Assembly: GCA_016618085.1 (NCBI GenBank)
Contig: JABLTG010000062.1
Location: 35,312-99,311, forward strand
Direction of reading: 5' to 3'
Length of the DNA stretch: 64,000 nucleotides
DNA from: Neovahlkampfia damariscottae
Taxonomy: Eukaryota > Heterolobosea > Selenaionea > Neovahlkampfiida > Neovahlkampfiidae
Shown: piece by piece, positions 9,001 to 63,773 of the stretch
Layout: each line of letters begins with the position of its first letter
Position numbering within the stretch: position 1 is the stretch's first letter
Notes under the pieces: model-generated
Databases searched by the model: none
What the model was told of the DNA's origin: nothing
What the model saw: the letters and a program-made list of their open reading frames with translations, nothing else
Made by a program: the position numbers and the translations under genes

Positions 9001-11935
9001 TGTCTTGAACTGATGCTTTGATTTTATAATTACCACTATGTTCGAGTTGGCATTGAAAGTTGATTGGTTTTGAAGTGGAATCTTTTTCAAATTTTTGAAT
9101 TGATTTTTCAACTTCTTTCTTATGTTTGTAACTGATTTCAACCAATTCCAAATCAACCTTTACATTTGAAACCGCAATTCCATTTATATTAGCCACAATC
9201 AAATCAACATCACAAACTTGATCACAAGAAATAACTCTTGATTTCATTTTTAAACCGACATAAACTTCAGCAGGATGAAAAATAATTGATGATGAAGAGT
9301 TTACAAGTTGATTGTTAATATCATAAACTGATGCGGTGGTATTCACATGAAAGGGCATGATAGGGGCATCTTTCAAACTTTTTAGTGAAATACCAACATA
9401 TCCTTCACCTGAATCATTCAAGGATAATGGATAATATCCAAAATCTTGAGTTTGACTGATGATATCATTAAAGGTGTACGAAATCCAACCATTTGGTTTA
9501 TAAATAGTAGGTGTCACAGTAGTAGCACAATTTACAGCACATAAAGACATTGGTCCACCACTGAAATAATTCGCTTTTATCTTCATCTGAGCTTTTTCAT
9601 TGATTAAATATAGTTTTGGAGCAATTTCTGTTGATGCTGTGAATTCTGGTTTTCTAAATTCTTGTACACAAAATGAATGAGTTTCAATAAAATCTTTTCC
9701 ATCTGAAAGTTTCAAAAAACAATCTCCCAAGTTCAAATTATCAGGAAGTGAAAGTTCAAAGTTAAAAGATCCATTTTCAGCAATTTCCAGTTTTGATTCA
9801 TAAAAACTATTTCTTTGAGAATCAAACGCTTCACAGATCAAACAATTAACTTTAGGATATTCCACTGAAAATGAAGATCCTTTTTTGACAATGTTTCTGA
9901 GATATCCTTTGATGTTCACCTTTTCATTTGGTAAATAAAGAGCTTTCTCATCAATCACAACAACATGAAGCCCATATTTTCTTTTTTGATTGTATTTTGT
10001 CAATACTACTGAACAATCATTTTTCCTTCGTGAAATAATAATTTTTTTTTCTTTATCTGCAGAAAATGAGACATAACCTTCTTTGGTAGAATAAATCTTG
10101 TCATATTCAAAGTCTGTCTCAATTAAAGAACCATCTTTTAAATTGGTACTCCAAGCATGAATTATTCCATTGTAGTAAATTTGATCAAGACTGATACAAG
10201 TTGATTGTATCCAAACTATTTTTCTGTATTGAGAAGGAAACCAAAAGTTTGGTTCAACGACTACTATCAATTGTCCTAAATTTTCATTTTTATGTTGTAA
10301 ATATTTTTGAAGTTCGATTGTTGTTTCATCATAACCAATTTTTGATTTTTGAACATTCAATGTTAAATCAACTACATGGGTTCCTAAATTTGATAAATGC
10401 TCATCCAAAGTTGATTTTGACAAATCTAAAAATGACAATTCGCTTAATTTTGAATATTTAGTAACATCAGCGTGATAAACTGAACATTTGATTTTTGAAA
10501 CTTTTTTTGTCCAAATTTGATATGTTGGAGGTCCTGTTGATGCATCATGGATCATTTTTCCTTCAGCAGCAATGAACTCAGTTGAATTTGAATCTGTGGG
10601 TGTGAAATAATATTCCCGTTTTTTCATAGTAGAACCATAGATATCAATCAATTTGGAACTGAAATCAATTTTATATTCTGTTCCAACTAAAAATTTGCCA
10701 GAGATATTAAGCCACAAAGAATAATTTTCATAACTAATTTGAACATCAATTCGTGGTGAAATAGAGATCATGTTCTTTTCAAAAATAGATTCATCAATTG
10801 GACGTGTCAATTGAATAGAGACACGTCCTGGTGCAGTATAACTCTCTGCTATAGTAAATTCAGTGTAAGTTCTGAATTGTGCTGATTTTGATTCTGTTGA
10901 ACATAAAACACCTTCCATTGATTGTATTCCAGGTAAAATTTGTAATTCAAAAGGATATCCAGCAGGTAATTCAGAGTCAACAGTGAACCAAACTCCATCA
11001 TGAGATTTAGGATCTTCAAGTAAAAATTTGATGTTTTCTTGAATATTTTTATATTGATTGTCAATATACATAAGTTTTACTTGGTCTCTTGTGAGCATTG
11101 ATAATGAATAATGAGTTAAACGAACAAGGCCTCCATCTACAAGTCTTACATGTTCTAGTAAATTTTCGACATCAATTTCTTGATCAAACTTCAAAAAGAA
11201 AATAGGTTTTGCACTGACTGAGATTCCAGAAGGAAAAATATCAATACATTTTGGTGAAGCTGTTGAAAATGAAAAATGATACATCTTTTGAAGCTCCATT
11301 TCCAATTCACTTTTAATTCCTTTTGGTATTGTAACTTGATAAGTTGTTGCTTTTCGAATTTCATGAGGTGTGAATTTTAAAATTTTTGGAGTTATCCATT
11401 TTATTTCTCCTTCAAGTTTTGGTGAAATTTTTAATGGATTTTTTTTCTTTCTGATGAATTCAAGAGTAGCAATCGGAACCATAGGTTGATTAAATATTAC
11501 AGTGATAAAAGTAACATCTTTGACTTGTTCTCCATCCGGAGTATGATTTAAAATTAATAATTCTTCTCCTCCTTCTGTAGGTCTCATAGGTGCTTGTAAT
11601 TTTTCTTTTGGTTTTGCAGGAAATTTAGCAAGTTCAATCTGACCTTTTTCAGGTCTCTTGATTGAATCATCTCTTTGAGTAAATGAATTTTCATTCTTAG
11701 AAGTTATTTGAAAATCAGGTAATTTTTTAAATATTGTTTGTGCTTCTTCTTTTGAAAGTTCCTGATGTTTTTTCTTTTCACTTTGCTCTTTTTGAATTTT
11801 TTTGAATTTTTCTGATGATAGAGACAGCAAAACATTGGACTTTGTTTTGTTTGTTATTTCAGATTTTTTCAAATGTACTTTGTCAAAAAAAGTTGATGCA
11901 CTCACCGTGAACAACTCGTTTACGGTTTTAAACAT
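6014..11935 (-). CDS. Alpha-2-macroglobulin-like protein, bacterial-type architecture, thioester lost
   Basis: An intronless 1973-aa member of the macroglobulin/complement superfamily. N-terminal Ig-like domains of the kind in bacterial YfhM/ECAM proteins are visible (TFITVIFNQPMVPIATLEF; KWITPKILKFTPHEIRKATTY). Then come macroglobulin beta-sandwich domains, a basic Ser/Arg-rich bait-like loop (around residues 1190-1250), the A2M block LPDTLTRYRIMAVASF, and an alpha/alpha TED domain with receptor-domain-like C-terminus. Where thioester members have GCxEQ, this protein reads WNFTESEC (1478-1485): the Cys is Glu and the Gln is Cys. The start at M11935 is fixed by a CCAAT box 14 nt upstream; from it there is no signal peptide or lipobox, so an intracellular or unconventionally exported inhibitor is possible. 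It is head-to-head with the Q-rich membrane gene. Confidence 0.85.
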   Translation of the reverse strand: MFKTVNELFTVSASTFFDKVHLKKSEITNKTKSNVLLSLSSEKFKKIQKEQSEKKKHQELSKEEAQTIFKKLPDFQITSKNENSFTQRDDSIKRPEKGQIELAKFPAKPKEKLQAPMRPTEGGEELLILNHTPDGEQVKDVTFITVIFNQPMVPIATLEFIRKKKNPLKISPKLEGEIKWITPKILKFTPHEIRKATTYQVTIPKGIKSELEMELQKMYHFSFSTASPKCIDIFPSGISVSAKPIFFLKFDQEIDVENLLEHVRLVDGGLVRLTHYSLSMLTRDQVKLMYIDNQYKNIQENIKFLLEDPKSHDGVWFTVDSELPAGYPFELQILPGIQSMEGVLCSTESKSAQFRTYTEFTIAESYTAPGRVSIQLTRPIDESIFEKNMISISPRIDVQISYENYSLWLNISGKFLVGTEYKIDFSSKLIDIYGSTMKKREYYFTPTDSNSTEFIAAEGKMIHDASTGPPTYQIWTKKVSKIKCSVYHADVTKYSKLSELSFLDLSKSTLDEHLSNLGTHVVDLTLNVQKSKIGYDETTIELQKYLQHKNENLGQLIVVVEPNFWFPSQYRKIVWIQSTCISLDQIYYNGIIHAWSTNLKDGSLIETDFEYDKIYSTKEGYVSFSADKEKKIIISRRKNDCSVVLTKYNQKRKYGLHVVVIDEKALYLPNEKVNIKGYLRNIVKKGSSFSVEYPKVNCLICEAFDSQRNSFYESKLEIAENGSFNFELSLPDNLNLGDCFLKLSDGKDFIETHSFCVQEFRKPEFTASTEIAPKLYLINEKAQMKIKANYFSGGPMSLCAVNCATTVTPTIYKPNGWISYTFNDIISQTQDFGYYPLSLNDSGEGYVGISLKSLKDAPIMPFHVNTTASVYDINNQLVNSSSSIIFHPAEVYVGLKMKSRVISCDQVCDVDLIVANINGIAVSNVKVDLELVEISYKHKKEVEKSIQKFEKDSTSKPINFQCQLEHSGNYKIKASVQDKKGNKNCTSVTFYVDSNNNDNVFEPAPEILMIANKEEYVIDETAEIYLQSPFKKSHVQLLVLGDDVIKSETLTLDSPSYLLKIKITKEMIPNFAVVVSIFENSEKKKTMFASLNLKVLPVESHLHVSINQDNNQLKPGEETIIEVEVLDYQKKSVEGADVLLMIVDDAVLHLGNYKLKNPLDHFLSRSIKASQRSSREFIDFIDSSSSIQLKESLQNFNNRRHIYSKKRQSGGFPFFGTSISKEVSFEEFDDHDSEHEHMTVGGLLTEKQEKTEKLEVRTNFYPVAAFEASTFTDKEGKVKVKIKLPDTLTRYRIMAVASFKECYFGTTESNFTVSLPFMIRPMLPRFLNVGDENVQIPVVVENQSDEDIEIDLAARSFNLDFEKEIGYNLKIKKDSRDVVCFTVKPCKHGIAKMQFGAILKGGIYSDAVEKQFKVLTPATSESFAIYGEIDDDNIVIQPIQPPETDEVFKETGGLEISTSSTAAQTLTDAVISLDESDWNFTESECSSILGILALKDVISLYKIKSLPSEKDIDSFINKKIKNICKYQNLSGGWSFLPNYLNSGINDPFVSCFAGYTLFFCKKSGYSVDDDVISRSFQYLNNFDSCSTKNFSSIFISFFNPKIINTLTAFAQYALTFHEKCDKSDLLKKSHNLFKKCDTKNILMEGLSFLLYTLDYCDPKDKLIPTIHAYLMKSVNETGKSARFVEKVESNGFLILQSNIRTDAIIMNTLISVDPTNYLIPKIAQGLLERRIGGKWNSSQENCFILTSMKKYLDTYEKEIPNFKTNVWFGDSYGGSLEFKNKSLDSKQLLIPMEDLLKENSSNLTLEKKGIGRLYYRLVMSYSPLNLNLKPCDFGFLIERKYYNQNKKEIIKDKKGRYHFNIGETINIRISIVTDSLKYHVALIDKIPGGFEPFNPFLERKGSIHSFSKWFQYQNIRDERVEVFTDCLWPGIKELNYCGNCTIKGDYIVLPCVAKEMYTPEIFGRSSTDYVIIE

Positions 11936-11949
11936 GTTGAATTGATTTA

Positions 11950-11954
11950 ATTGG
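11950..11954 (-). promoter_or_regulatory. CCAAT box deciding the A2M start
   Basis: CCAAT on the minus strand, 14 nt upstream of the ATG at 11935. It excludes the longer GTG-initiated reading, whose extra residues could be mistaken for a leader. The A2M/membrane-gene spacer also has an ATTGG box at 12223-12227 for the plus-strand gene. Confidence 0.5.
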
Positions 11955-12256
11955 TGGAGGAGTTCTATTCTAAATTTAATCTTCTCAATTCTCACAAAGT
12001 AAACTTGAATTTTTAAAACAATACCCACTCAGCAAGTCTTTCAGTTCCAAAATAGCATTATCAGCATACTACTTCAATTGCTATTTTGAGACAGATTTCT
12101 AATTGGTTGAAAAATTTGTCGTTAGGGATTTTCAATACATTTCAAGGAAATAGAATGAAAAAATTGCAGAATTGAATGTTCTTCATATTTGATTGGGTAG
12201 ACATATTTAAATGTCGCACTTCATTGGTTGAATTTCATCAACAAAAAAACAACAAA

Positions 12257-15579: not shown

Positions 15580-16495
15580 ATGGTACTCTTTGGCGCTCCT
15601 GTTCTAGAACCAAATACTTCAATAGTAAGACAACAATTTTCTAAAAACAAAAGATTATTTGTATTGTTTCATTTCTCCTTCCTGGCTTTGCTCAAATAAT
15701 TGCTGGAGCGATTGCTAAGCCAGTAGACAACGCAGCTATCATAGTAGGAATATCAATGATTGTTGTAAATCTTCTTTTATGGTTATTTTCAAGTTTAATT
15801 GTAGTATTATTGACTGTGATTGTTACTATCGTAGGCACTTTCACATTTGGGCTTGGATATTTGCTTTATCCATTTGTTTTGGTTGGTTACCTTGCTCCAT
15901 TTATTGTGTATCCATGGTCAATTATCTGGGGTATCAACTGTTATCTCAAATCAAATGAGAAAGCACCTGTTCCTTCACAAGCATCTGTTACTGAAAACCC
16001 ACAACAACCTCAACAAGTTCCTCAACAAAACTATGAGCAACAACCTCAACCTCAACAACAACAACAAGACTTTCAACAACAACAACAACAACAACAATTC
16101 CAACAAGGAATTCCTCAACAAGACTTTCAACAACCTCAACAAAACATGCAACAACCACAATTCCAACAAGAAATTCCTCAACAAGACTTTCAACAATTCC
16201 AAGGCATTCCGCAACAAGACTTTCAACAANNNNNNNNNNNNNNNNNNNNNNNNNNNNNNNNNNNNNNNNNNNNNNNNNNNNNNNNNNNNNNNNNNNNNNN
16301 NNNNNNNNNNNNNNNNNNNNNNNNNNCCAACAAGGAATTCCTCAACAAGACTTTCAACAACCTCAACAAAACATGCAACAACCACAATTCCAACAAGAAA
16401 TTCCTCAACAAGACTTTCAACAATTCCAAGGCATTCCGCAACAAGACTTTCAACAATCACAACCTCAACAAATCTATCAGCAACAACACCAATAA
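15580..16495 (+). CDS. Paralog of the Q-rich membrane protein (interrupted by an assembly gap)
   Basis: Same structure as the gene at 12257: exon 1 (15580-15624) gives the same 15 residues, a 29-nt intron (15625-15653) sits at the identical position, and exon 2 keeps the hydrophobic segments with many conservative changes (VVLLTVIVTIVGTFTFG). The tail is the same Q/P repeat, followed by 97 Ns and a second near-identical repeat block that ends QSQPQQIYQQQHQ and TAA at 16495. The frame after the gap differs from that before it, so the true gap length cannot be 97 nt if the gene is intact. ATTGG at 15540-15544 lies upstream. Confidence 0.65.
16230..16326. other. Assembly gap (97 N) in the Q-rich repeat
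   Basis: A run of 97 Ns. The sequence before and after it carries the same repeat block, so the gap is a tandem-repeat collapse. A gap length congruent to 2 modulo 3 (for example 95 or 98) would keep the flanking Q/P reading frames together. Confidence 0.9.
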
Positions 16496-16711
16496 AAGCT
16501 GCTTGTATTTAACTTTTTCTCATTTTTTTTGGATTTTCTCTACCAACAAAAATTATTATGAATCAAAAACCAAGCCATACCTCAGGAAGATCTACTACAG
16601 AAGAGCAAATTTTTTGAGTTTCATTGGTGTACGATATTTTTGACAATCTCAACTTTTTTCATCTCATCATTCGAAAATGTTTGTCAAGAGATTTGATTCA
16701 AAAAAAAAAGG

Positions 16712-39341: not shown

Positions 39342-40660
39342 TCAAATAAAATTGAATTTTGTATCAATTTCTTTTTGATAAATCAACATCCAAAAAATTT
39401 TGTCTTGTTCAAGATTATGAATATCCCAAAAAGTTATAGTACCATTTTCACAACATGATACAAGAGTACTGTGTGATAGAATAGTTAAATTTAGAATATC
39501 TCTTCCATATCCCTTTTGTGAATCAGTATCAGAGTAATAATGATCCGAAAAATGAGATTCATTTATTTTTTCGTTGGACTCGAATTCGTAATTTTCTGCT
39601 TTAATATTTTGAATACAAACAAGTGTATTCTTTTCCAAAACAAAAATATTTCCTTCATATGTAGAAATAGCTAAATAACGATTTGAAATTGGTCGTATAC
39701 AAGATAGAGATTCATTTAAATTTAATTTTTCAATGATTATCCATGTTTTATCTTCAATGACCACCATCAGACCATTATAAAACCCTAAATACAAATAACC
39801 TGTTGATTTATCATAGTATGAAGATAAATTGGTTGGATATTCGAATGCTATTGATTTTTCAAGTTTAAATGTTTTGTAGTTTCTGACACGAAATTTTTTA
39901 TGTTTAAAATAACCAATATATTGTTCATTGATATTCATTATATTATAAATCCAATCTACATTGTCCATTGAATCAAGTTTTTGAAGTGTTTGAACTTTTC
40001 CCGCTCTCAGGTCATTTAAATCGTACCTTTCAATATGCTCAAGATTACTACCAGCTAAAACTAAACTGCCATCTGAAAATGTACAATGACTTCTGATAAA
40101 ATGATCCTCGAACGTTGAAAATTCTGTTATCAATTTTCCGTTTTCGTCCAGAACAACAGCACTGGATCCAATTGCCATGAACATGTCATCAAAGGATAAA
40201 CATTGTGAGTACTCTTTAACTCCTTCAAAAACTGTTTTAATTTCAGAGTTTATGATATTTAGAATAATTTTCCTGAGTCTCCAACACATAACAAACTATT
40301 TTTTTTTTCCATGAAACAAGTACAGTTGATAGGTTTTTTGTCAATCTTGAGAGTTTTTGTTTCTTTTAAAATTGGTGAGATGCTCTCATTGAATTCAAGT
40401 TTTTTTGTGTTTGAGTGGTTTGATTTTTTTGAAATAGAATCTTTTTCTGATTGGTGGTGATTACAACAGTTTGGTTGAAGCAGTGGAGAACAAATTTTCA
40501 AACCAGTTAATTTCTTTTGTTTATATTGTTTGCTTCCTACATTTTTTCTTCTGTGTATTAAAGCAAAGTAACCTCTAAAACGTTCTTTAAAATTATCAAT
40601 AGATTTTTCAGGTTGTTTTGTGAATTTATTTTGTTTGTATTTTTTGTCAAATTCAAACTT
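39342..40660 (-). CDS. WD40-type beta-propeller protein (5' end unresolved, frame break)
   Basis: WD-like blades are readable: INCTCFMEKKNSLLCVGDSG, SYYDKSTGYLYLGFYNGLMV, NRYLAISTYEGNIFVLEKNT and STLVSCCENGTITFWDIHNL. A basic N-terminal part with an IQ-like stretch (NFKERFRGYFALIHRRKN) precedes them. Near 40268 the frame breaks within CVGDSGKLF/LNIINSEI. One missing base after GGAAAATTATTC would mend a normal blade; a 56-nt GT..AG intron could also bridge it but would delete half a blade. The first exon and ATG are not found; the region upstream overlaps the opposite-strand LRR-AAA gene. The stop is at 39342. Confidence 0.6.
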
Positions 40661-40698
40661 GAATAAGAAAAAACAAAAATTAAACAACAAAACAATTC

Positions 40699-43600
40699 AA
40701 GTCTCGGAGTTTTTAAATTCTGAACAAAATGTTGCTTCAAAACTGGAAGGAGAAATAATTCAAGAAGTTGAAGTTAATTTTGCTGAAGAAATTTTGGAAA
40801 TCGTATCAGAAAAAGAACTCGAAAATTTCAGAAAATGCACAAATTTGATATTAAATTTAAAAACCAATCAAAAAAATTCAAAGGAGAATATTATCAATTC
40901 AAAAATTTTCACTGGAATACAATGGCTAACAAAATTAACTATAAATAACTGTTCAATGACTTACTTTCATATAAATGAAAATAAATTGCCATACCTCGAA
41001 GAATTGGACCTGTCAAATAACAAATTAAACAAATTCCAAATATCGAACTTACATTCTTTGAAAATTGTCGATATATCATCAAATCAGATTCATGTTTTAG
41101 ATCAACATAACTTGAATCATTTTAGAAATTTGAAAAATTTGATTTCTGTGGATCTGTCTTCAAATTGCCTACATCAAATTTGTTCATTAGAAACTTTGTT
41201 CAAAGATAATCAAAATTTGGAAAATTTGAATTTAGAAAACAACTTTTTGTCGTTAATCGAAATATTTTCGGTGATCAAATCAGTCAAAAGATTAAATTTG
41301 TCTAATAATTTCTTGAGATCGATTCCCAAGAACACTTTCAAAAATTTGGTTTGTTTGAAAGAATTAGATTTATCGTTTAATGGTTGGACGAATTATGACT
41401 GGATTGATGAATTATCTGGTAGTTTAGAAAATATATCAATTCAGAACTTTTCATCATTGGATGTGGTTGTGGATCAATTCAAACATTTTCCACTTGAAAA
41501 ATTAAGCATTAACGAAAAATTGAATCAAAAAGCAAAAAAAGTTTATCAAATTGATACATATTTGAAAGAAAATATTGATATATTTACGATTCTTTTGAAA
41601 AAGGGATTAACTAATGATTGGATGAATAATTTCAACAACGAATCAGATATTTCAAAACTGAATCAAGAAATAAATGATTTGAAATACATATTATCGAAAG
41701 AAAAATCAAAAAATATATTTGAAAGTCATATTAGAAACGAAATATTGATGAAATTCTTCTTTTTTTTGGAAAATAATGATATGAAAGAAAATATTGCTTG
41801 GAATATCTGGAGAACAGGAATATCAGTTGAAAATATTCTGGAGGAAGTAAAAAATGAATTTTTAGGTTTAGATAATGTGATTGAACAATTGAATATCATC
41901 GGAAATAGTTGTTTGTTGAAACTATCAAAAGGCGAAAAAATTGAAAAAGACAACTTCATTTTCATAGGTAAATCAATGATTCTTTTTTATGAAATTTAGG
42001 TCAACCTGGAACAGGAAAAACCACATTAGCGAGAAAACTATCCAAATTATTCTATGCATTTGGATTGATCACATCTCCTGATAAATTTATTGAAAAAGGG
42101 AATAATCTAAAAGGTTCTGTTGTTGGAAAAGCACAAGAGAATTTAATCAAATCATTTGAGGAAGCCAAAGGTGGAATTTTATTCATCGATGAAGCCTATT
42201 CTCTGCTATCATCAGATTACGGAAAAGAAGTTATTGATACTCTTGTCCAACAAATGACTTTAGATACAACAGATGCAATAGTAATCATTGCAGGATATGA
42301 AAAAGAAATGGACGAATTTTTGAATTACAATTCTGGATTATCCAGAAGATTTCAAACAGTCATAGATTTCGGATATTATGATGAAAAAGCTTTGATGAAT
42401 ATTTTCAATAATTTGAAAGGAAATTTGACTCTAGATTCAAGTGCAATGAAAATTTTACAAGATTTCTTTCAAAAAAATAAAGGAAATCCAACATTTGGGA
42501 ATGCAGGAGGTGTAATAAAACTGATAAAAAATATCAATAAAATGCTCTCAAAAGAAGTGACAATTTTGACATCCAATGAAAATGAAATAGTTTCAGGTAA
42601 TATTTTAAGAAGTGCAATTGCAAGTTTAAACAAAATGATTGATGAAAAAATTGTGAAAATATTAAGAACTTGTAAAATGGAAGGATATGGACATCGATTT
42701 CGTGGATTCAATTTACACACTTTTTCACAGTTGACAGAAAAGGATCTAAGGAATGATTTTAACATATCCAATGTTTCAGATAGAAAAACAATCCTTCAGT
42801 ATGCACAATATTTCTCATATTGTAAACATCCAGCAACAACCAGTATTGTATTGGATTTAATAGAATTTCAATTTATTTCGATTTATGATGCTATTGAAAT
42901 CATCTTTCAATTTTTACATTTTGATAGTTCTTTTTTTCAAAATGTGATTTCCTTTTTGCTTAAGAATTATGAAAATCTTGATGATTTATTGAAACTAACA
43001 AAAAAAGAATTGGAGTCCAGCTATGATGCTTTGTATAAAGAAATTGATGATTTTTTGAATTCAGTGGAAATTAAAAAGAAAATGAATGAAGAGTTGGAGA
43101 AATCATTTGACGGAATTCCCTCATTGAATCATTGGTCAAAAGATGAAAATTTGAAATTATTGGTCAATATAAGGAAAGAAATAAAGAATCACAAGATTAA
43201 AATGATCACTCAAGAATTCAAAAATCAATTCAGAACTTTAATTGATTATTTTCAAAAGAAAAAGAATTTCAAAAATTTAGTTCCATTTTTTGAAGAAATT
43301 CAAGCTGAATTAAAAGAATTGACAAAGTTAGGATTAAAAAATGATGTGCATAATTATCATTATATCCCTCAAATTCAAAAGAAATTGCAAAATGAGGAAG
43401 ATTCCAACATGCAATGTGAAAAATTACTCAAATTGATATCAGAAGCCACATTATATTCAAAAAATCATTCTCATCAAAATCAAGTGAAATTGATACATAT
43501 TGATAACCATAATTCACTGAATGAAAAAATAGAAGATTTGAAGGTGAACAAAACGGATTTTGAAAATGCAAAAAAAGGTAAAATCAGATCAATAATGATT

Positions 43601-43876
43601 ATCCTGGATATAACAAATTTATTAGAAAATGAAATATTTCATGTTTCCAAAACTTCATTATCTGTACCAAATTTATTCTTCATTTACAAGAAAAAAGATA
43701 CTGCAGTCTTCTATTTCAATGTTGAATGTTTCAAAATTTTGAATGAAAATCCAAAATTGAATTTCAAGCAAATCAAAGATAAGTCAAGAAAAATGATAGA
43801 AAAAATTTTAAAAACAAATCATTGGAATCAAGATAAAATCAAAAAAATGGCAAAAATTTATTGTCAAGTTCACTGA
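40699..43876 (+). CDS. Leucine-rich-repeat protein fused to a CbxX/CfxQ-type AAA ATPase (5' end unresolved)
   Basis: LRRs occupy about the first 250 residues (LEELDLSNNKLNKFQISNL; LISVDLSSNCLHQI; VKRLNLSNNFLRSI; LKELDLSFNGW). After a coiled-coil linker, a 32-nt intron (41967-41998) precedes a Walker A GQPGTGKTT. CbxX-type marks follow: GGILFIDEAYSLL (Walker B), IVIIAGYEKEMDEFL and SGLSRRFQTVIDF with Arg fingers, then a lid with NAGGV. Next comes a SAM-like segment (FRGFNLHTFSQLTEKDLRND) and a long helical C-terminus. The sensor-ATPase layout recalls NLR-type proteins, though the ATPase is not a NACHT. No ATG is found before the exon at 40699. Overlaps the next gene's stop by 7 bp. Confidence 0.7.
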
Positions 43877-51286: not shown

Positions 51287-54200
51287 TTAAATAATATTGT
51301 CTCCAGACATTTGAGCTGTTGCATTTAAAGATTGAAAATGATTATAAATATTTTTGATACTAGTATTGACTGAATCCACTTTATTTGAACTCAAATAAAA
51401 AGCAAAAATTTCTCTTTTCTTTGAAAATTTGTGGGAAATGGTTTCAAAACAAGCCATCAAATATTCCTTTGTTTTTCTGTAATCTTTTCCTGATTCGTAT
51501 TCAGGAAATACTTTATTTATAAAAGACCCAGATGTCATTTTCTTTTCAAAAATATCACATTTATTATAAAGTAAAATAACATGATGATCTATTCAAAAAA
51601 TATAAAAAAAAAAACTTTTGGAATTACTTTTGTTATCATCATTACAACAAAATTCATGGAATAGTTTCAATGATTTCAAAATTGAACATGAAGATTTTTT
51701 GTTAATTTTGAAAAATTTTGAAAGTACTTTAAATTCATCAGTTGGTTCATCTAAGATAATATCATAATCTGATAAGGAAACCATTAGAACAATCATATTT
51801 CTTTCTGATTTTTTTGTTTCAATTCTTTCATCAATTGAATGTGATTTGAATATAAATGGAACATTTTCAATAACAAATTTTATCATTTTTAATTTAGTCA
51901 CTGAAATTTCTGATGATTGAATATCTTTTGGAATAGGAAGATAATTTTCTTTCAAAATTCTTTCATAATGTTTGAATAAATATTTGTAATTTGCTGATAA
52001 TTCATCATTAACAGAAAAAGCTTTGGAAATTGTTTCAAAATCATTTTCTGATAATAAATTTAATAATAATGGAAATGATTTTGTTGTAAAAGTTTGAGGT
52101 AAATCACTTGTCATTTTGATATCAAATTTTCCTGATTTCACAATAATTTGAACATTTTTGAACAGTTCTTTTTGAATTTCTGTTGAATATTGAAGACAAT
52201 CTCTTGGAGGTAATAATCCTTTATAAAGAAATGCGAGTTTTGTTAAAAATGTTGAAATACCAACACCTTCATGACCAATGAGAAAAAAGTTGAAATTTTT
52301 GTGTTGACCATCCAATGAATGATCATAGGTGACTCTTCTACTAGTGACTGATTTTGCATCTTTCAATTCTTCTTTCATTTTTGCAGAATGATAATAAAAT
52401 GGTGATATAAACTCCTCAGTTTCATTGGAGTTCATACAAACTTCTAAAACATCCACAGCATCAGCTACTTTTTCCATTCTTAATAAACACGTTCCTCTTA
52501 AAGCAGTACATTCAACATCCAATGTTTTTTCGATAGACACAAAATCAATAATTGCTTTTTTAAAATCACTATTTAAAAGTTAAATAAAATGATCAATACC
52601 CAATCATAAAATAACAAGTTCCTCGTTTTTTTATCATTTCAAGTGATTCACCAATTTTTTGTTCAATACAATGAGTTAAATAAGGAATTGATTTTTGATA
52701 TTGACGTGATTCAAAATAACAAATTGCTAACATCTCCTAAAAATTTTGATGAACAATTTTTCATTCTTACGAAAGTATTTTTTTCAACATTGTACATGTG
52801 TGATATTTCCTTTTGAGCCAGTTCTCTTTGTGACACATCTTCTGATTTGGTATCATAAAAAATGTATTTTTTCCATTCTGGGAATTCTGGCAACCATGGA
52901 AATTCTCTTTCATCTTTTTCAGGTTCTTCAGTTTCTTTTCTTGAATTTCTTCTTCCTCTTTGAACTGGTTCTTGAATAGAATTCAATGATAAATTACTCA
53001 TTTCCTTTTGAATTTCTAATTTAGGTGTTTCAACTGACGATAAGTCTTCTTTTTCAATTGTTACGTTCAAATCTATCGAAATTTTTTCTTGACTTCTTGG
53101 TGACATCAATTTTGGTGATTTTGAATCATCTGATTTTTTTGGTGAACTTCTTGATGATTGATCACTTGTAATTTTTGGAAGTGATGTAATTTTAACTTTA
53201 TTTGATTTCAATTTAATCTTTTCTGCATTGTATTGTTTTTTTTCTTTTTTATTTTTCGGATTTTTTTCAATAATTTCTAAAATAGACATTTCCTTTGAAG
53301 CATTTCTCAAAAGATATTTTAATTTCAATTCTTCTGTATCAAGAACCCAAACATCATTCAAATTTTTTTTGCTATCTTTTCCTCCGATCAAATAAAAGTT
53401 TGAATTGAATATAAAACTTGTTGAATATTTCCTATTTGAAGGCTTTAACATTCTTGTATCAAATAATAAAATCTGTGATTTGTTTGTTTTTAAATCAATA
53501 ATAAAACAATCTGAAAGTGTCTTTTTTGCATCAAATCCTTGATGTATTAATAAAAAACTATTTCCAATATTAGACATTGAATGACCTCCTCTAGGACATG
53601 GTATATTTCCTGTCAAAAAAATTTCTGTCCAAATATCAGTTGTTGAATCAAATATCCATAAATCTTGTAAAAAACACTTTTTCTCTTCTGCTAAACCTCC
53701 AAAAATAATCATGAAACGATCCAAATAGGTGCATGAAGAATGTGAATGTCTTTCTTTTGGTGATAATCCATTCCTCTCAACTGGGTTCCATTCATATGTT
53801 TCTAGATTAAATTTCCAACAATCACCTAAAATTCTCTTCTTCAGTTTGTTTGTTGAAATTCCTCCATAAATTATCATTTGATTTTTTATTACTGTGGCAC
53901 TATGAAAATGTCTTTCAACTGGTGACTTATTTGAAAAGTGATTCATGATTTTCCATTCCCATACATCTTGTATAAAAATTAAATTTTTTTTTTTTTTTCA
54001 AACCTGTGTATAAAACCCACATTGTTGAAGTTGATTCCCAAACTTGTCCACCGAATATATATATATTGTTTAAGAAATTAATAGCTCTTTAAAATGAATA
54101 AGGTTAAAAGTTGATGTTGTTTCTTACGTATGTCCTTTTAGTGTTGGTGGTTTCTCTTCAGATAAAATTTCTTTTTTTGAAACTTTCCAAATTCCATGTT

Positions 54201-54693: not shown

Positions 54694-57600
54694 ATGTCGT
54701 CAATTGTAGAACAATACCAAAGAAAATTTGATGGACCGGTGGAAGATCTTATTCTACCGAGTTTTGAAAGTTCTGATCAAGCCATTAAAGACGCTCTAAA
54801 AGAACGATACAAAGACAACAACATTTATACATACTTAGGCTCAACTCTTATCGCTGTAAATCCTTACTCAAACAAACCAAGAGATAATGGAAAGATATAT
54901 TCAAATGAAGTTAAGAATCTCTTCCATAAACACAATCCTTATGAACTTTCACCTCATGTTTATTCTCTTGCTGAATCTGCTTATCGTACCATGAAACAAA
55001 CAGGAAAACCACAAGTTGTTATTATTTCAGGTGAATCAGGTGCTGGAAAAACTGTGTCAGCCAGACTTGTTATGGAATACATTGCCGCTGTTTCAGTTTC
55101 TGGTGTCGCAACTGATCATATCAAGAGAGTTGTAAATAACACAAATCCTATTTTAGAAGCTTTTGGAAATGCTAAAACATTAAGAAACGATAATTCTTCA
55201 AGATTTGGAAAGCACACTGAATTATTTTTTAACTTCAAAGGTCAACTTGAAGGTGGTTATATCACAACTTCATTATTAGAAAAACAAAGAGTTATCACAC
55301 AAAGAGCTGGAGAAAGAAACTATCATATTTTTTATCAATTATGTTTAGGTGCTGATGATGCTCTCAAATCAGGTTTAAATCTTGGAACTCCAAAACAATT
55401 TGCTTATTTAAATCAAACTGATCCAAACATCAAAGGTAAAAATAACACTTCTTTTTTAATATTAATTTTAGGTGTAAATGATAAATTAGAATTCAGACAT
55501 ACAACTGAATGTTTAGCTGAAGCTGGTATTTTAGTTACAGAACAAATGGAAATCTTTAGAGTTATTGCTGGTGTTTTACATTTAGGAAACTTGAGATTTG
55601 CTGAAAATAAAAAAGACAACACAGAAAGAGCTATTATTACAACTAGAGATGTTTTAAAAAATGTTGCTCTTGCTCTCAGTGTTGAAGAATCTGCTTTAGA
55701 AACAGCTCTTTTAAATAGAAGAATTAAAGTAGCTACTGGTTCATCAGAAGGAGAAGTTACAATTATGGCTCAAAATCCTGAACAAGCTGCTAAAAATAGA
55801 GATGCTTTAGCAAAAGACATTTATGAAAGACTTTTCAATTGGTTAATTAAAAGAGTAAAAAGAAAAATATACTAACATTTCAAAAAGATCAACGCAGCTG
55901 TCAAAAGACCTGATAATGCAAAATTTGCAATTGGAATTCTTGATATTTATGGATTTGAAATTTATCAAGGAAAAGGAAATACTTTAGAACAATTGAATAT
56001 TAATTTTGTTAATGAAAAAATCCAACAATTAGTTTCAAAATGGTTACAAAAAGAACAAGAAGGTAAACCTGATATTTTTTTTATGTTTTTAGAATACATT
56101 GAAGAAGGTGTTACAGTTCCAGATTCATCACTTAAAGTTAAAAGTTCTACAGAATGTATCAAATTATTAGAAGGAAAACCAATTGGTGTTTATTCTTTAC
56201 TTGATGAAGAAGCTTTACTTAGAGGTGGTGGAAATGATAAAAATTATATGAACAAATTAAATTCAAACTTTGATAAAGAAGCTTATAGAAATGTCTATGG
56301 AAAACCAGGTGGAAAATTCAAGTAATTGTTTTTTTTTTTTTAACATTTTCTTTTTTACAGATTTGAACCTATGATGTGGGCTTGTAGACATTTTGCAGGT
56401 AAAGTTGATTATAATGTTGAAGGATGGATTGATAAAAATAATGATACTGTTTATGAAGATTTAATTAAATGTATTCAATCTACAGATAGTGATTTAGTTC
56501 AAGCTTTATATCCAAAAAATGAAAAAATTGTTGATTCTGGAAAATTACAAAAAACAACTTCAAAACAATTTCAAACAGATGTAGCTCAATTAGTTGGAAA
56601 ATTAAAAGGAAGAGAACAACATTATATTCGTTGTATTAAACCAAATCGTAACTTGAACCACTTTTTTAACGTATTTTAGACGAAAAGAAACCTGAATCAT
56701 TTAAAGACGATGTTGTTTTAGATCAAGTGAAATATCTTGGACTTGATGAAAATGTTCGTATCAGAAAAGCTGGTTACTTTTTTAAAATGCCTTATGAAAA
56801 ATTTGTTGATAGATATAAATTATGCTCAAAACAAACATGGCCAATATGCAAAGGAACTGATAGAGAAGGAACTGAATTGATCCTCAAAGATATGGGTCTT
56901 TACAAACATGCTGCTTTTGGAAAAACAAAAGTATTCTTAAAAGCACCATTTCATGTTTCAGAATTAGATGAAAAAATAGAATCACGTCGTGCTGATATGG
57001 CTTCACTTATTCAAAATAAGTACAAAAAATATAAACAAAAAAAATTACTTGCTGAAAATAAAAATCTCTCCATGGCTCTATCAGTAAAAAAAAAAAAAAA
57101 AAAAAAATTAACTTTTAAAAGATGACTTATAATGATACAGGGCCTTATACTTTCAAACAAAATGTTTATCAAATTACACAAACTGGAGAAAGAAAGAAAC
57201 AATTATTAGTTGTTACACCAAAAGGAACTTATCTTTTAGATCCAAAAAGTTATACTGTGAAAAAAAGACTTCAATATGCAAGAATGAAACAACTTTTCTG
57301 TTCAAATTTAAATGATGGAGTTTTTGGTGTTGAAATGGATAAGGATGTTGATGTAATCTTAGAAGCTGATAATAAACATGAAGTCATGCAAGCAATTAGG
57401 TATGATTTTTTGTTTTTTTTTTTTGACATTCTTTCAGAGATCATTATATGGGTTTAACAAAACAAAGTTTACATAAAGAAATTGGAGAAAACTTCAAATA
57501 TCAGATGAAAAGAGGTGTTCATCAACAACTTAAATATAGAAAGAATCATGGAGCAAAGACAACACTTATTGAATATACTCCTGAAGGCTTAAACGTTTCT

Positions 57601-59783
57601 ATCAAACCAAGTGATGATATCTTTGAAGGACTCAAAATTAGAAGAAGAAACTCTTTCAACAAAGGTAATATTTTAATTTTTTTTTTAATTTTGAAGTATT
57701 TTATGGTGATTATCTTCATTTACAAAAGACACTTATCATGGATCAACAAAGAGAAAAATATGGTGACAAAGATGTTCACTTTTCTTCACAAGTTTCAAAA
57801 TATAACAAAAAGTATAAACAACAAGAAAGAATTCTTATGGTCACTGATAAAGCTTTATATTCAATGGAACCAAATGGTTATATGGTTAATCGTAGAGTAC
57901 CTTTATTCCATGTTAGAAGTATTTCTGTCAGTCCATTCACAGATGGTTTCTTTATTATCCAAATTGAAGAAGATGATGGAGATTATGTATTTGAAAGTAA
58001 CAAAAAAACAGAAATCTTAAAAGTTATTGCTGAACAATACTCAAATAGCACAAGAAGAACTTTAAAATTCATCGTAAAACCTGAAATTTATTGGAGTCAT
58101 AAAGGAAAAGAAGATGAAATTAGATTTCAAGAAGATCCAACAGTTTCTGAAACTTACTTAAAAGCAGCAAGTTCTGGAGCGGATGTTTATGTGAAACCTG
58201 AAGATACAATGAACACTGCATTATCATCTGAACTTATTCAAGATTTATATTCCGGACAAAAATTAAGAAGAAGAGATTCATTAGTGCGTTGGTATCTTGG
58301 TGATTATTTACATTTACAAAATTCAAAAGTTATGCAAAAACTTTCAAAACAATACAAAGACCAACGTATTCTTTATTCTGGTATTGTAGCTAAAGTCAAC
58401 AAACGTTATACTGTCCAAAACAGAAAAATGATCATCACTGAAAAAGCAATCTATAACATGGATGATTCTGGTTATCATATTAATAGACGTATTCCAATTG
58501 AAAAATTAGAAAGTGCTCATGTAAGTCAAATGAGAGATGGATTCTTTATTTTAAGAGTACCTGATGAATATGATTATTTCCATACAAGTGCTCAAAAAAC
58601 TGAAATTCTTAAAGTACTTTGTGATCAATATAAAAAAATTACAGGAAGACAATTACCAGTTCATGTTGATAACAAAATTGTTTATACACCAACTAAGAAA
58701 ACAGTCAATAGAGGTGTTAGAACAGTTGAATTTAAAGAAGATCCAGAAGTCAATGTACCAACAATTTATCCAACCAAAACTGGTGTCAAAATTAAAATCA
58801 ATAATGATGAACAAATTATTGACGCAAATAGTGCGGATGCTGGTTTAATTGATAAACCAAATTCTGTTTATTCTGGAAGAAAATACAGAAGAAAAAATTC
58901 AATTGGACGTGATTATATTGGTGATTATCTTCGTTTAGAAAATTCTGCTCAAATCAAAGGTTTGTTCAAAAAGAATGGTGATAATCAATTATTATTTTCA
59001 GCTGAAGTAGCAAAAATTAACAACAAATACAAAGGACAAACAAGAATCCTTCTTATTACTGATCAAAATGTTTATAATATTGATCCAAATCAATTTAAAG
59101 TTAAACGTAGAATTAAAATGGATGAAATTGATGGTATTTCTGTATCTTCATTAACAGATGGTCATTTCTGCTTACACATGCCAAACTCTTATGACTATCT
59201 TTTTGAATCTGACAAAAAAACAGAAATTCTTGACACATTATCATCAGCATTTAAGAATAGAGATAAGAATTTAAAAGTCAATGTTGGTGACAAATTTGAA
59301 TATTCACCTAAAGGTTCTGATGCTACTCAAGTAAACTTTGTGTTGGATGACAACACTTCAGATACATTCCTTGAATCTAATAGTGGTGGATTAGTTGTTC
59401 ATGTTCAACATGAAGAACCAAGTGTCATCTTAGAAGCTGCATTTGTTCATGTTAAAGATCAACCAAAACCAATTGAAGTTAAATCAAATCCAATTCTCAT
59501 CAAATTAAGAAAAAGATGGAAATACAAACTTGAAATTCGTTTCTATGTAAATGATCATTTAGAAGGATGTATGTTCAGAGAAACAATTGACACAGTATCA
59601 TCAAGAGAAGAACATGTTTCAAAGGTTGGTGTTTTAGAAGCAAGAGATGAACGTTATGTTATTACTTTACCAGAAAGAACTGTTTTGTTCTCAATTCTCA
59701 GTAAAACTCGTGTCAAAGCTAAATTAGTTGATCCTCAAGGAAAATTATTGTTAGCTGTTAGATTTATTTATGATGTCAGATAA
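54694..59783 (+). CDS. Class I myosin with four tandem TH1 modules and a C-terminal RhoGDI-like domain
   Basis: About 1600 aa, eight small introns. Motor (1-690): P-loop GESGAGKT, switch I NDNSSRFGK, switch II DIYGFE, actin-binding YIRCIKPN. The TEDS position is Glu (EVTIMAQNPEQA), an acidic residue that makes heavy-chain phosphorylation unnecessary in known class I myosins. One IQ-like neck (LIQNKYKKYKQKK). Then TH1-like lipid-binding modules, each with KKYKQQERILMVTDKALYSM-like, VSPFTDGFF-like and KTEIL-like strands: 740-910 (degenerate opener), 918-1100, 1100-1300, 1305-1475; three begin with RRRNSF/RRRDSL/RRKNSI then GDYL. The last 125 residues (PKPIEVKSNPILIKLRKRWK; YKLEIRFYVNDHLEGCMFRE) follow the RhoGDI immunoglobulin-like fold. 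Confidence 0.85.
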
Positions 59784-59887: not shown

Positions 59888-62800
59888 ATGTCAGAATTAG
59901 AGAAGGAAATTCAAAAGAAAAGCAGTGCTTCCTTCTCAAAAAAGTTTTTACAAATATTTACAAGAAAAAATTCGACAGATAACCAAAATACACCTGAATC
60001 TCCAACAAAACGGAAACCAAGAAGATCTATATTTCAATTGAAAAAGAAATCCAGTCCTGGTTTGGTTTTGGATGATGCAGCAATAAAAAAGGAGGAGTAA
60101 TTTCTTTTTTAAAAAGTAACTTTTTAATTTAGACCTGATGATGAAAATGCTGGTTTGAAAAAAATAGCAGACGCTTTTTTAGCAAAAGCTGATACAAATG
60201 GTGATGGTATGATTGAATTTGATGAATTTGTTGAAGTTATGGTTGATTTTATGGGCAGTAATGAACAAATTCAATTTTTTTGGAGAAAATTATTAAATGG
60301 AGCGGACTTGGACGCAAAAGTTTTATTTTTGAAATTATTTAACTTTTTAGATTGATTCAAAGGAATTCTTAGAATTACTTTTACATCCAAAATACTCAAC
60401 TCCAAAACAAGAAGGTAACAAATAAACAAAATATTTAATTTCTTCAAAAGCGACATGGTGGTTTCAATCATTTGATGCAGACAAAAGTGGAGAACTGGAT
60501 AAAGACGAAATCTCACAAATGTCAACTTTTATTGATTGGTTACCTGAATTTTCATCACCAGAACAACTTCACGAATTCTTCAGTTTAAAGGAAGATGGCA
60601 CAATTGGATTGGATGATTTTGTAAAAATCTACGAAGAGCAGAACAAAGCAATACAAGAGCAAATTGAAAAAAATAAAAAAATGGGGACAGTAGAAAAAAG
60701 TGGTTGGAGTATCATGAAACAAACAGCAAATTCAACGTCGAAATTTGTAAATTTAATTTCAAAAGATGAATCAGAAACAAATCCAAGTATTATTATTGAA
60801 AAATGGAATAAAACTAGAAGCACTGAAACGTTAGAGTTAATTTTAAACAATTTAGAAAATTTACCAGCTGAATGGACAGCTAAGTTTATTCAAAATCAAG
60901 GAATTCACTGTATTGCTGATGCTATTTCAGTTTCAAATGTACTTTGTGCAAGACAAAATGATGATGATTTAAAAAAATTACATTTTGTTACAAAAATTAT
61001 TCATCATTTATTACAAACAAGTGTAAGAAAGAAATTAACAAAAATTAAAATGTTTGAAAGTCTGGTATTAAAATAATTCCTGGAGACAGTGAATTAATTG
61101 AACTATTTTGTTTATTAGTGTCAATTAAAACACCTTCACTTCAATTAATTGTTCTTTGTTTATCAATTATTTGTTCGAGCAATTCAAAAGGATATCAAAA
61201 TGTTTATCAAGCATTTGAATATTTACAAACAGTCAAAAGAGAAAAAAATAGATTTGAATATTTGATGAATCATTTGAAAGATAAAAATACAGATCAAAAT
61301 ACCCAAACAAATGTTATTTTATTAATCAATGAATTGATTGTTGGATCTGAAGATGAAGAACAATACAAAATTCAAGTTGATTTTAATCATTTGAATTTAT
61401 TACAAATATGTGATGTAACTAACTAAAAAATTGAATTTTTTTTTTTTAGAAACTTTCAGAAACTTCTCAACTTGAGTATTTGGATAATCAAATTGATATT
61501 CTTCGTGAATTGATGAAATATGAAGATCAAGAAATTGATCCTATAGAAGTTAATTTTAAAGAAATTAATAAACTTTTAACGGAAGAGGATTCAAGAACAA
61601 AATTTTTGAAAATTCTTGAAATTTTTCAAGAGATTTCAAAACATGAAAGTAAAATTAAAAATTGGGAAGATATTGAAAAAGTGAATGTTACTGCTTCGAA
61701 AAATATTTTATCTGGAAAAGTAGTCCCAGATATTTTCCAACTTGAAACAGAATTCAAAAAGAGGGCATTCAATTTTGATATTGAATTGAAAAAGAAATCG
61801 GATGAAATTGAGAATATCAAAAAAAAATTTGATGAATTGGAGTTGGAAAAAAAGGTAAATTCAAGTTAATTCTGAATTCAATAGAAAAAAGAAGATGAAA
61901 TATTAAAAAAAGAAGCAGAATTTAAAAAAGAATTAGAGGCTGCAAAAAAAGATAAATTGGAATCAAAAATTGAAAAACTTTCAGAAATTAAACCGACTGG
62001 AGGACCACCAATGAATGTTCCAACAGGAGGACCATCAGGACCACCTCCAATGAAGCCATCAGGAGGACCACCAATGGTCGCCCCAACTGGAGGACCACCA
62101 ATGAATGTTCCAACAGGAGGACCACCACCAATGGGTCCTACAGGAGGACCTCCTGGACCACCACCAATGGGAGGTCCTTCAGGAGGACCACCAGGACCAC
62201 CGCCAATGGGACCTTCAGGAGGACCACCGATGGGAGGACCTCCTGGACCACCACCAATGGGAGGCCCTTCAGGAGGACCGCCTGGTATGGGACCTCCTGG
62301 TATGGGAGGTTTTGGTGCACAAAAATCAAATTTACCAGCAATCCCTCTTTCTCCAATCAAAGAAAACGTCAAAGGATTTTTCTTCACCAAAGTAGAAAAA
62401 AGATTCATGGACACATCACTTTTCATTGAAGGTGGAATCGCAAAAACTTCGATTGAACATCAAAAAAAATTTGATTTGGATGAAGTGAAGTCATTATTTG
62501 GAAAGGTTGAAAAAAAAGTTGAAGAAAAGAAATCAACTGAGCCTGAAAAACCTGTCATTCCAATGGCAAATATTTTAGAACCAAAAGTAAATCAAAACAT
62601 TTGTAAGAACTATATCATTTCTCACATCAATTAGCTCTTGCAATTGGATCACTTAAAAGAAAAGGAATTACATCTCATCAAGCAATCAAAAATCTATTCT
62701 TGGAAGTTAGTCCTGATGTTGATCAAGAAATTTTATCAGGATTAAGAAATGTCATTCCAACGGAAGAAGATGCTCAAAAAATCAAAGAATACAAAGGAGA

Positions 62801-63773
62801 AGATCAATTAACAGAAGCAGAAGAATATTTTAAATTTATTCAAGTTATTCCTTCATTATCTGAAAGATTAGATTCTTGGAATACAATGGTATTCTTTCAC
62901 GATGATTTTTCAAAAATTAAACCAAAATATGATTCTGTGATTCGAACATGCCAAGATTTGAAATCAAATGAAAATTTCAAAGTTATTTTATCATTAGTTT
63001 TGGCTTTAGGAAATCTGTTAAGTGGAAAAACTAATGCCAAAATAATGTATGCTTTCAAATTAAAAACATTAAAAACTTTAATGGGAACAAAGACAAATGG
63101 TGGTCTATCTTGCATTCGATATATTTTGTCAATGGCTGCAATTGTCAAACCAGATTTTGATAAAATGTTCACAGATTTAAAGACTATTGAAGAGTCTTCC
63201 AAGGTAGATTTTGATCAATTAGATAAAGAAATTGAAGAGATAGAAAAGAATTTAGTGGTTGTGAATAAACAAATTCAATTGGCTGAAAAAAAGAATATTG
63301 AGAATGACAAACTTCCTTCTGTGATGAAAAAATTTGTGGAAAATGCTGAAACTGCTATGAAAATGATTAAAGAATCAAAACATAAAATGATTTCCTCCAT
63401 TGAAGAATTATCAAAGGCATTTGGTGAAGATCCCAAAAAAATTAAAGAATCTCCTTCTGAATATTTTCAAGAAATTGATGAAATATTTAAAACACTGAAA
63501 GAAGCACATTTGGCAAATTTAGCTAAAATTGAAAAAGAAGCTAAACGATTGAAAAAAGAAGAAGAAAAAAAAGAGAAGGAATTAAAAAGAGCAGAATCAA
63601 AAAATATGTCAACAAAAAAGTCTGTTAGAAAAATGAATGATGGAGAAGATGGAGGTGAAGACGGAAAATTCAATGAAGATGATTTGAGATCTGGTAATGC
63701 TTTAAGAAGAAAAATGAAAAAGAAAAAAGAAACAAAAGAAAAAAAGAAAAGGGTAATTGAAGATTTATTGTAA
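59888..63773 (+). CDS. EF-hand containing diaphanous-type formin
   Basis: About 1200 aa with at least eight introns (for example 60099-60133, 61023-61060, 61424-61452, about 62604-62633). N-terminal basic tail (KRKPRRSIFQLKKKS), then EF-hands with good loops DTNGDGMIEFDE and DADKSGELDKDE plus a weak third (KEDGTIGLDD). The GBD/FH3-type armadillo region follows (WKNTRST-like IIIEKWNKTRSTETLELILN; LENLPAEWTAKFIQNQGIHC), a coiled coil, an FH1 of Gly-Pro repeats (GGPPGPPPMGGPSGGPP-like, about 62000-62310) and FH2 (LALAIGSLKR; LGNLLSGKTNAKIMYAFKLK; TLMGTKTNGG). A basic end (NALRRKMKKKKE) resembles a DAD. Formins nucleate and elongate actin filaments, usually under Rho control; Ca2+ input here is inferred from the EF-hands. 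Confidence 0.85.

Follow-up and report, generated by a model that had tools for sequence, protein, structure and literature searches.

A predicted class I myosin of Neovahlkampfia damariscottae with four tandem TH1 modules and a likely, remote RhoGDI-like C-terminal domain

Genomic region and gene model

The analysed window comprised 64,000 nucleotides of contig JABLTG010000062.1 from Neovahlkampfia damariscottae (GenBank assembly GCA_016618085.1, positions 35,312 to 99,311 of the forward strand), and all coordinates given here refer to it. The DNA is A+T-rich (66.6 to 75.2% A+T over 32 stretches of 2 kb; PMC11550330 gives 80.65% for Anaeramoeba ignava), carries plainly eukaryotic genes with short introns and contains 97 N in all. 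A single tRNA-Ser was the sole RNA match at the gathering threshold. The following features of a class I myosin gene were located on the forward strand:

54694..59783, +, whole class I myosin gene; 8 exons, 1613-aa product, predicted model without transcripts
54694-55435, 55472-55854, 55888-56321 and 56361-56647, +, exons 1-4
56680-57083, 57122-57399, 57438-57664 and 57697-59783, +, exons 5-8
54772..56942, +, class I myosin motor domain, protein residues 27-703, spliced; Pfam Myosin_head, 662.7 bits
55753..55755, +, TEDS-rule position, Glu342, 16 residues before DALAK; counted from the sequence
57006..57044, +, single degenerate IQ-like motif, protein residues 725-737; read from the translation
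57122..57654, +, TH1 unit 1, protein residues 751-915; Myosin_TH1, 59.5 bits; intron 57400-57437 inside
57631..58253, +, TH1 unit 2, protein residues 908-1104; Myosin_TH1, 127.6 bits; intron 57665-57696 inside
58269..58871, +, TH1 unit 3, protein residues 1110-1310; Myosin_TH1, 122.3 bits
58875..59420, +, TH1 unit 4, protein residues 1312-1493; Myosin_TH1, 152.5 bits; PDB myosin-Ic 4r8g_E, E = 1.4e-6
59421..59780, +, candidate RhoGDI-like C-terminal domain, protein residues 1494-1613 (120 residues); sub-threshold Pfam Rho_GDI

The exons are separated by seven GT-AG introns of 32-39 bases each (8-28% G+C, against 26-33% in the exons), and the spliced frame has its sole stop at the end (59781-59783). 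The intron at 57084-57121 (+, 38 bases) consists chiefly of A after its GT. In the initial annotation the myosin had been assigned to 57738-59783; this span does lie inside the last exon, and the whole gene proved larger.

TH1 units 2-4 and the C-terminal domain share one open frame. Across the domain, stops are absent from the frame in use and number 7, 13, 13, 7 and 14 in the five others; the codon score per codon is 0.41 for the domain and 0.37 for TH1 unit 4, against -0.46 and -0.82 for the other two forward frames. A scan of the last exon for introns of the form GTA[AT]...[TC]AG (about 29-67 bases, <20% G+C) returned none, and the 106 bases downstream of the stop have a G+C content of only 20%. 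An artefact, with the C-terminal end non-coding or part of another gene, would have to be accommodated within a single open frame of matching codon usage; no positive support for it was found, and even with a gene model predicted without transcripts its probability is considered negligible. The tail as a separate gene, which the initial annotation had named as the result that would speak against it, did not occur by frame and codon usage. As far as can be read from the DNA, tail and motor are one continuous predicted gene.

Several other frames were recorded in the window. The next gene on the strand of the myosin is formin-like (59888-63773, +; FH2 165.9 bits, FHOD-type FH3 33.8 bits), with an N-terminus that resembles an EF-hand by eye, a sub-threshold Drf_GBD match (20.8 bits) and a proline-rich, FH1-like stretch; an EF-hand formin, if this is what the gene encodes, would place another actin regulator with an atypical N-terminal part next to the myosin. 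On the reverse strand, a 2004-aa open frame at 6014-12028 (-) encodes a bacterial-type alpha-2-macroglobulin (bMG10, A2M, bait region, Big_5), possibly a bacterial acquisition in eukaryotic DNA, and a G-protein alpha domain was matched at 51593-52540 (-; 49.0 bits, cut-off 48.8), with 78 same-frame residues preceding the match. At 40620-43876 (+), an LRR frame is closely followed by a frame with AAA ATPase and SAM domains; the two may be exons of a single gene, whose combination of domains would be uncommon. A glutamine-rich repeat at 15756-16643 (+) contains a run of undetermined bases (X in translations).

Motor domain and lever

The motor domain carries the P-loop, switch I and switch II motifs at residues 113, 165 and 394, respectively. 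Myosin-Ib was the best PDB match; next came myosin IE, myosin-Ic and an entry called myosin I, and the top 8 of the 60 PDB sequences listed (150 matched) were class I by name. Together with the Myosin_head score, these nearest listed motors agree with the earlier designation of a class I motor. At the lever base, FLKAPF pairs with FIRNPR of myosin-Ib in an alignment judged by eye, and a proline insertion of this type is described as class I-specific in passages of the survey PMC5583752. In the PDB alignment, the IQ-like motif at 725-737 falls opposite the beginning of the myosin-Ib lever; a 33-aa peptide of this region gave no Pfam match, and no SH3 domain was present among the Pfam matches of the myosin. 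The TEDS position was placed at Glu342 by a counting rule, and since a glutamate occupies it, the motor is probably without need for activating phosphorylation. In Dictyostelium, TEDS phosphorylation is attributed to the Rac-activated kinase PAKb in passages of PMC8847673. The predicted protein is an intact class I motor with an expanded tail.

TH1 array

The four TH1-like units that had been noted initially were each scored singly, and all exceeded the Pfam Myosin_TH1 cut-off of 31.1 bits (59.5-152.5 bits). The span 57738-59783, to which the array had been assigned, contains units 3 and 4 in full and the greater part of unit 2; unit 1 lies upstream of it. When the four were aligned, as the initial annotation had proposed, units 2-4 were 34-39% identical to one another and unit 1 was 16-23% identical to units 2-4; unit 1 is without the N-terminal stretch of the others (~30 positions). 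In alignments read by eye, units 2-4 all keep the Lys and the Arg that myosin-Ic has in its first two TH1 strands, and unit 1 has Gln at both positions. Phosphoinositide binding by TH1 domains is ascribed to basic residues in the area of the first two strands in passages of PMC12676778. The presence of four tandem TH1 modules is secure. A multivalent grip of the array on membranes would be in keeping with the number of units, their scores and the kept basic residues. Myosins with several TH1 domains may well have been described elsewhere; the titles listed in a literature search for them (20 of 34) were immunological or clinical.

C-terminal domain: database matches

The last residues had been read as RhoGDI-like, and a match of this kind was obtained for the 120 C-terminal residues below threshold. 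A 124-aa query (59409-59780) matched Pfam Rho_GDI (PF02115) with 14.6 bits and E = 0.026 over profile positions 60-190 of 193, the curated cut-off being 26.5 bits. Rho_GDI was the sole Pfam family listed for the C-terminal end at E up to 10, a setting at which the HMMER filters still discard most matches above about E 0.1. With three later query starts the match was kept at 13.6, 13.6 and 12.9 bits; it was lost in two longer queries reaching into TH1 and was unlisted for the 681-aa tail or the full-length protein. The domain had no match in NCBIfam, and RhoGDI was not among the three PDB chains that phmmer reported at E up to 10. AlphaFold models computed without an alignment were of low confidence (pLDDT 42.7 for 124 aa and 33.4 for 300 aa). 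When the low-confidence 124-aa model was compared with the PDB by Foldseek, no match had an E value as low as 0.001, and RhoGDI was missing from the best 50 of 826 rows.

C-terminal domain: chance controls

A profile was built from the human, yeast and plant RhoGDI sequences, of which the plant and yeast sequences were entered by hand and verified solely by their own Pfam scores. Against this profile the domain scored 11.6 bits, above 5000 of 5000 shuffles; when another 20,000 shuffles were scored, one exceeded it. It also ranked first against 352 window peptides (124-aa cuts of window frames >=100 aa, those with ten or more X excluded), the best non-overlapping peptide reaching 8.0 bits, a level attained by peptides of the motor domain. 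The whole 704-aa frame was first of 474 window frames with 6.2 bits, followed by the formin frame with 6.1. By hhalign, the domain reached E 0.00041 at a probability of only 34.7%; the best window peptide outside it had 0.0017, and none of 300 shuffles did better than 0.013.

Scored singly, plant RhoGDI gave 16.3 bits, which none of 5000 shuffles reached (best shuffle 10.0; best non-overlapping of the 352 window peptides 7.0 bits), in an alignment colinear with the domain over 100 residues. Human RhoGDI1 gave 1.8 bits and yeast RhoGDI 0.9 bits, values reached by 200 and 633 of 5000 shuffles, respectively, and PDE6-delta gave -1.4 bits, reached by 2470 of 5000. The RhoGDI signal rests mainly on one plant sequence, entered by hand. 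At 38 positions the domain is identical to at least one of the three RhoGDIs, a count that shuffles also give (mean 33.8, maximum 46). Agreement in hydrophobic pattern, first seen as 28/33 versus 11/54, was discarded after its control had failed: when realigned for the control it was 27/32 versus 12/54, the same difference arose in 53 of 200 shuffles, and at least four of 61 alpha-2-macroglobulin peptides exceeded the domain (best 0.79 versus 0.62).

These values bear on a second explanation, according to which the domain is some other beta-sandwich of Ig or E-set type without RhoGDI descent, its likeness arising from chance and a common strand pattern. The sub-threshold Pfam score, the little signal of human and yeast RhoGDI taken singly, the PDB sequence search without RhoGDI and the motor-domain peptides at up to 8.0 bits with the same profile are what such a sandwich would give. 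It fits poorly with the colinear plant alignment, with PDE6-delta at shuffle level and with the lack of any further family in Pfam (E up to 10) or NCBIfam, and we regard it as improbable. A match to a different Ig-like family, which had been named beforehand as a result contradicting the RhoGDI assignment, was listed by Pfam in no instance. Descent of the C-terminal domain from RhoGDI is considered likely, short of proven.

C-terminal domain: kept and lost RhoGDI features

In passages of PMC8622166 and PMC2362126, RhoGDI is described as having two parts, an N-terminal arm that touches the GTPase switch through Asp45 and an Ig-like domain in which the prenyl pocket and a set of acidic residues lie; the pocket triad L77/F102/W194 is taken from the latter source. 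In the myosin tail the switch-binding arm is absent, the Rho_GDI match beginning at profile position 60 with a TH1 unit in place of the arm. The triad reads V/I/F in a four-sequence alignment, all hydrophobic in a mapping that depends on the alignment, and it is weak as evidence because hydrophobic agreement was no better than in shuffles. Acidic residues of RhoGDI grip the polybasic tail of the GTPase, and a choice of seven acidic human positions (121, 154, 163, 164, 183, 184 and 185) was checked: two are kept (154 as E, 183 as D), and 121, 163, 164, 184 and 185 are changed to H, R, T, P and Q, respectively. Yeast and/or plant RhoGDI also differ from human at 121, 154, 163 and 164. W192 and W194 correspond to V and F in the domain; yeast and plant have L and I at W192, and plant has Y at W194. 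The domain carries a net charge of +7 over 120 residues; the corresponding human, yeast and plant values are 0, +5 and +1. In the pairwise alignment with human RhoGDI1 the C-terminal part is paired otherwise than in the four-sequence alignment, and the residue mapping is provisional because the two disagree there.

The idea that the motor carries a usual, working Rho chaperone, as put forward initially, was not borne out, the arm being absent and 5 of the 7 acidic positions changed. A tail with full RhoGDI activity, which would extract Rho from the membrane, block exchange and turn Rho off at the motor, has family resemblance only in its favour and the same two losses against it; it is rated very improbable.

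The losses can also be taken further, to a RhoGDI descendant without GTPase or prenyl binding that now serves protein or membrane contact, or autoinhibition of the motor. To the missing arm and the changed acidic positions, this explanation can add the replacement of W194 and W192 by F and V and the raised net charge. It has to be set against triad positions that are still hydrophobic and against the differences of yeast and plant RhoGDI themselves from human at W192, W194, 121, 154, 163 and 164; function, moreover, cannot be inferred from sequence. Such a loss of binding is conceivable, if on the whole doubtful.

Discussion

Taken as a whole, the gene is read here, tentatively and at a little under an even chance, as encoding a remote RhoGDI-type domain that holds a prenylated GTPase at the membrane site of the motor. 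TH1 units 2-4, and perhaps unit 1, would jointly grip acidic phosphoinositide membranes and so attach the protein tightly. The RhoGDI-like domain would form a hydrophobic cradle in which the prenyl group of its partner, a Rho-family GTPase or some other prenylated protein, could lie, and the cradle would act at the same membrane site as the TH1 grip. The partner would then be held or positioned at the membrane, neither extracted nor blocked in nucleotide exchange, and a Rho signal would in this way stay near the actin on which the motor pulls. Holding is proposed in place of extraction because the domain is without the switch-binding arm and has lost much of the acidic grip, and because, in passages of PMC8622166, GDI1 variants without acidic residues of the arm or the Ig-like domain bound RAC1 and did not displace it from the membrane. 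That a cradle derived from RhoGDI, in a TH1-anchored motor, might capture Rho GTPases and carry or concentrate them along cortical actin is judged rather unlikely; if it did, Rho signalling and force production would move together.

Class I myosins are widespread and link membranes to actin; RhoGDIs usually occur as soluble proteins of their own. With the short-tailed class I myosins (myosin-Ib and -Ic: motor, IQ, one TH1), the predicted protein shares the lever-base proline and the TH1 domain, and its motor is closest to myosin-Ib among the listed PDB matches; it differs in having four TH1 units instead of one, a poor IQ motif and an extra C-terminal domain. Likeness to the Ig-like domain of RhoGDI (PF02115), best in plant, consists of remote, colinear similarity over 100 residues with hydrophobic triad positions, whereas the absent N-terminal arm, the 5 of 7 changed acidic positions, the fusion to a motor and the score below the Pfam cut-off set the domain apart. 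PDE6-delta and UNC119 are prenyl- or acyl-binding beta-sandwiches and relatives of RhoGDI; PDE6-delta stood at shuffle level against the domain, and the family was unlisted by Pfam for it. Coronin is not a motor and is not known to contain a RhoGDI-type domain. Dictyostelium coronin is actin-associated and is said in passages of PMC8847673 to hold GDP-bound Rac as RhoGDI does. Myosin IX, as described in passages of PMC3942036, likewise has a Rho-regulator type of domain in its tail and is a precedent for Rho regulators joining myosins, but that domain is a RhoGAP and its class is another.

For Naegleria, passages of PMC9928731 give one RhoGDI gene and 26 myosins and are silent on a fusion. RhoGDI was unmentioned in the main texts of the myosin surveys PMC3942036, PMC5583752 and PMC2375034, and no RhoGDI-bearing myosin appeared in the literature by title and start of abstract, among the matches listed. 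In viral contigs, a collection uninformative on eukaryotes, the 300-aa tail end gave 11 pattern matches and the three-sequence RhoGDI alignment 102, with 0 confirmed in either case; in prokaryotic genome contigs, equally uninformative on eukaryotes, the 681-aa tail gave 26 with 0 confirmed. The gene is likely to represent a new tail variant of class I myosin, in which the four TH1 units are secure and the RhoGDI end is likely.

The four TH1 units make this myosin a natural case for relating copy number to membrane dwell time. If the fusion is true, a site for a Rho partner would lie on the motor itself and would allow a direct test of Rho positioning by motors. A Rho-binding tail would, if true, be another route to Rho control, beside TEDS phosphorylation via PAKb, and a RhoGDI-type domain on a myosin would be a link between Rho and the motor that differs from the RhoGAP of myosin IX.
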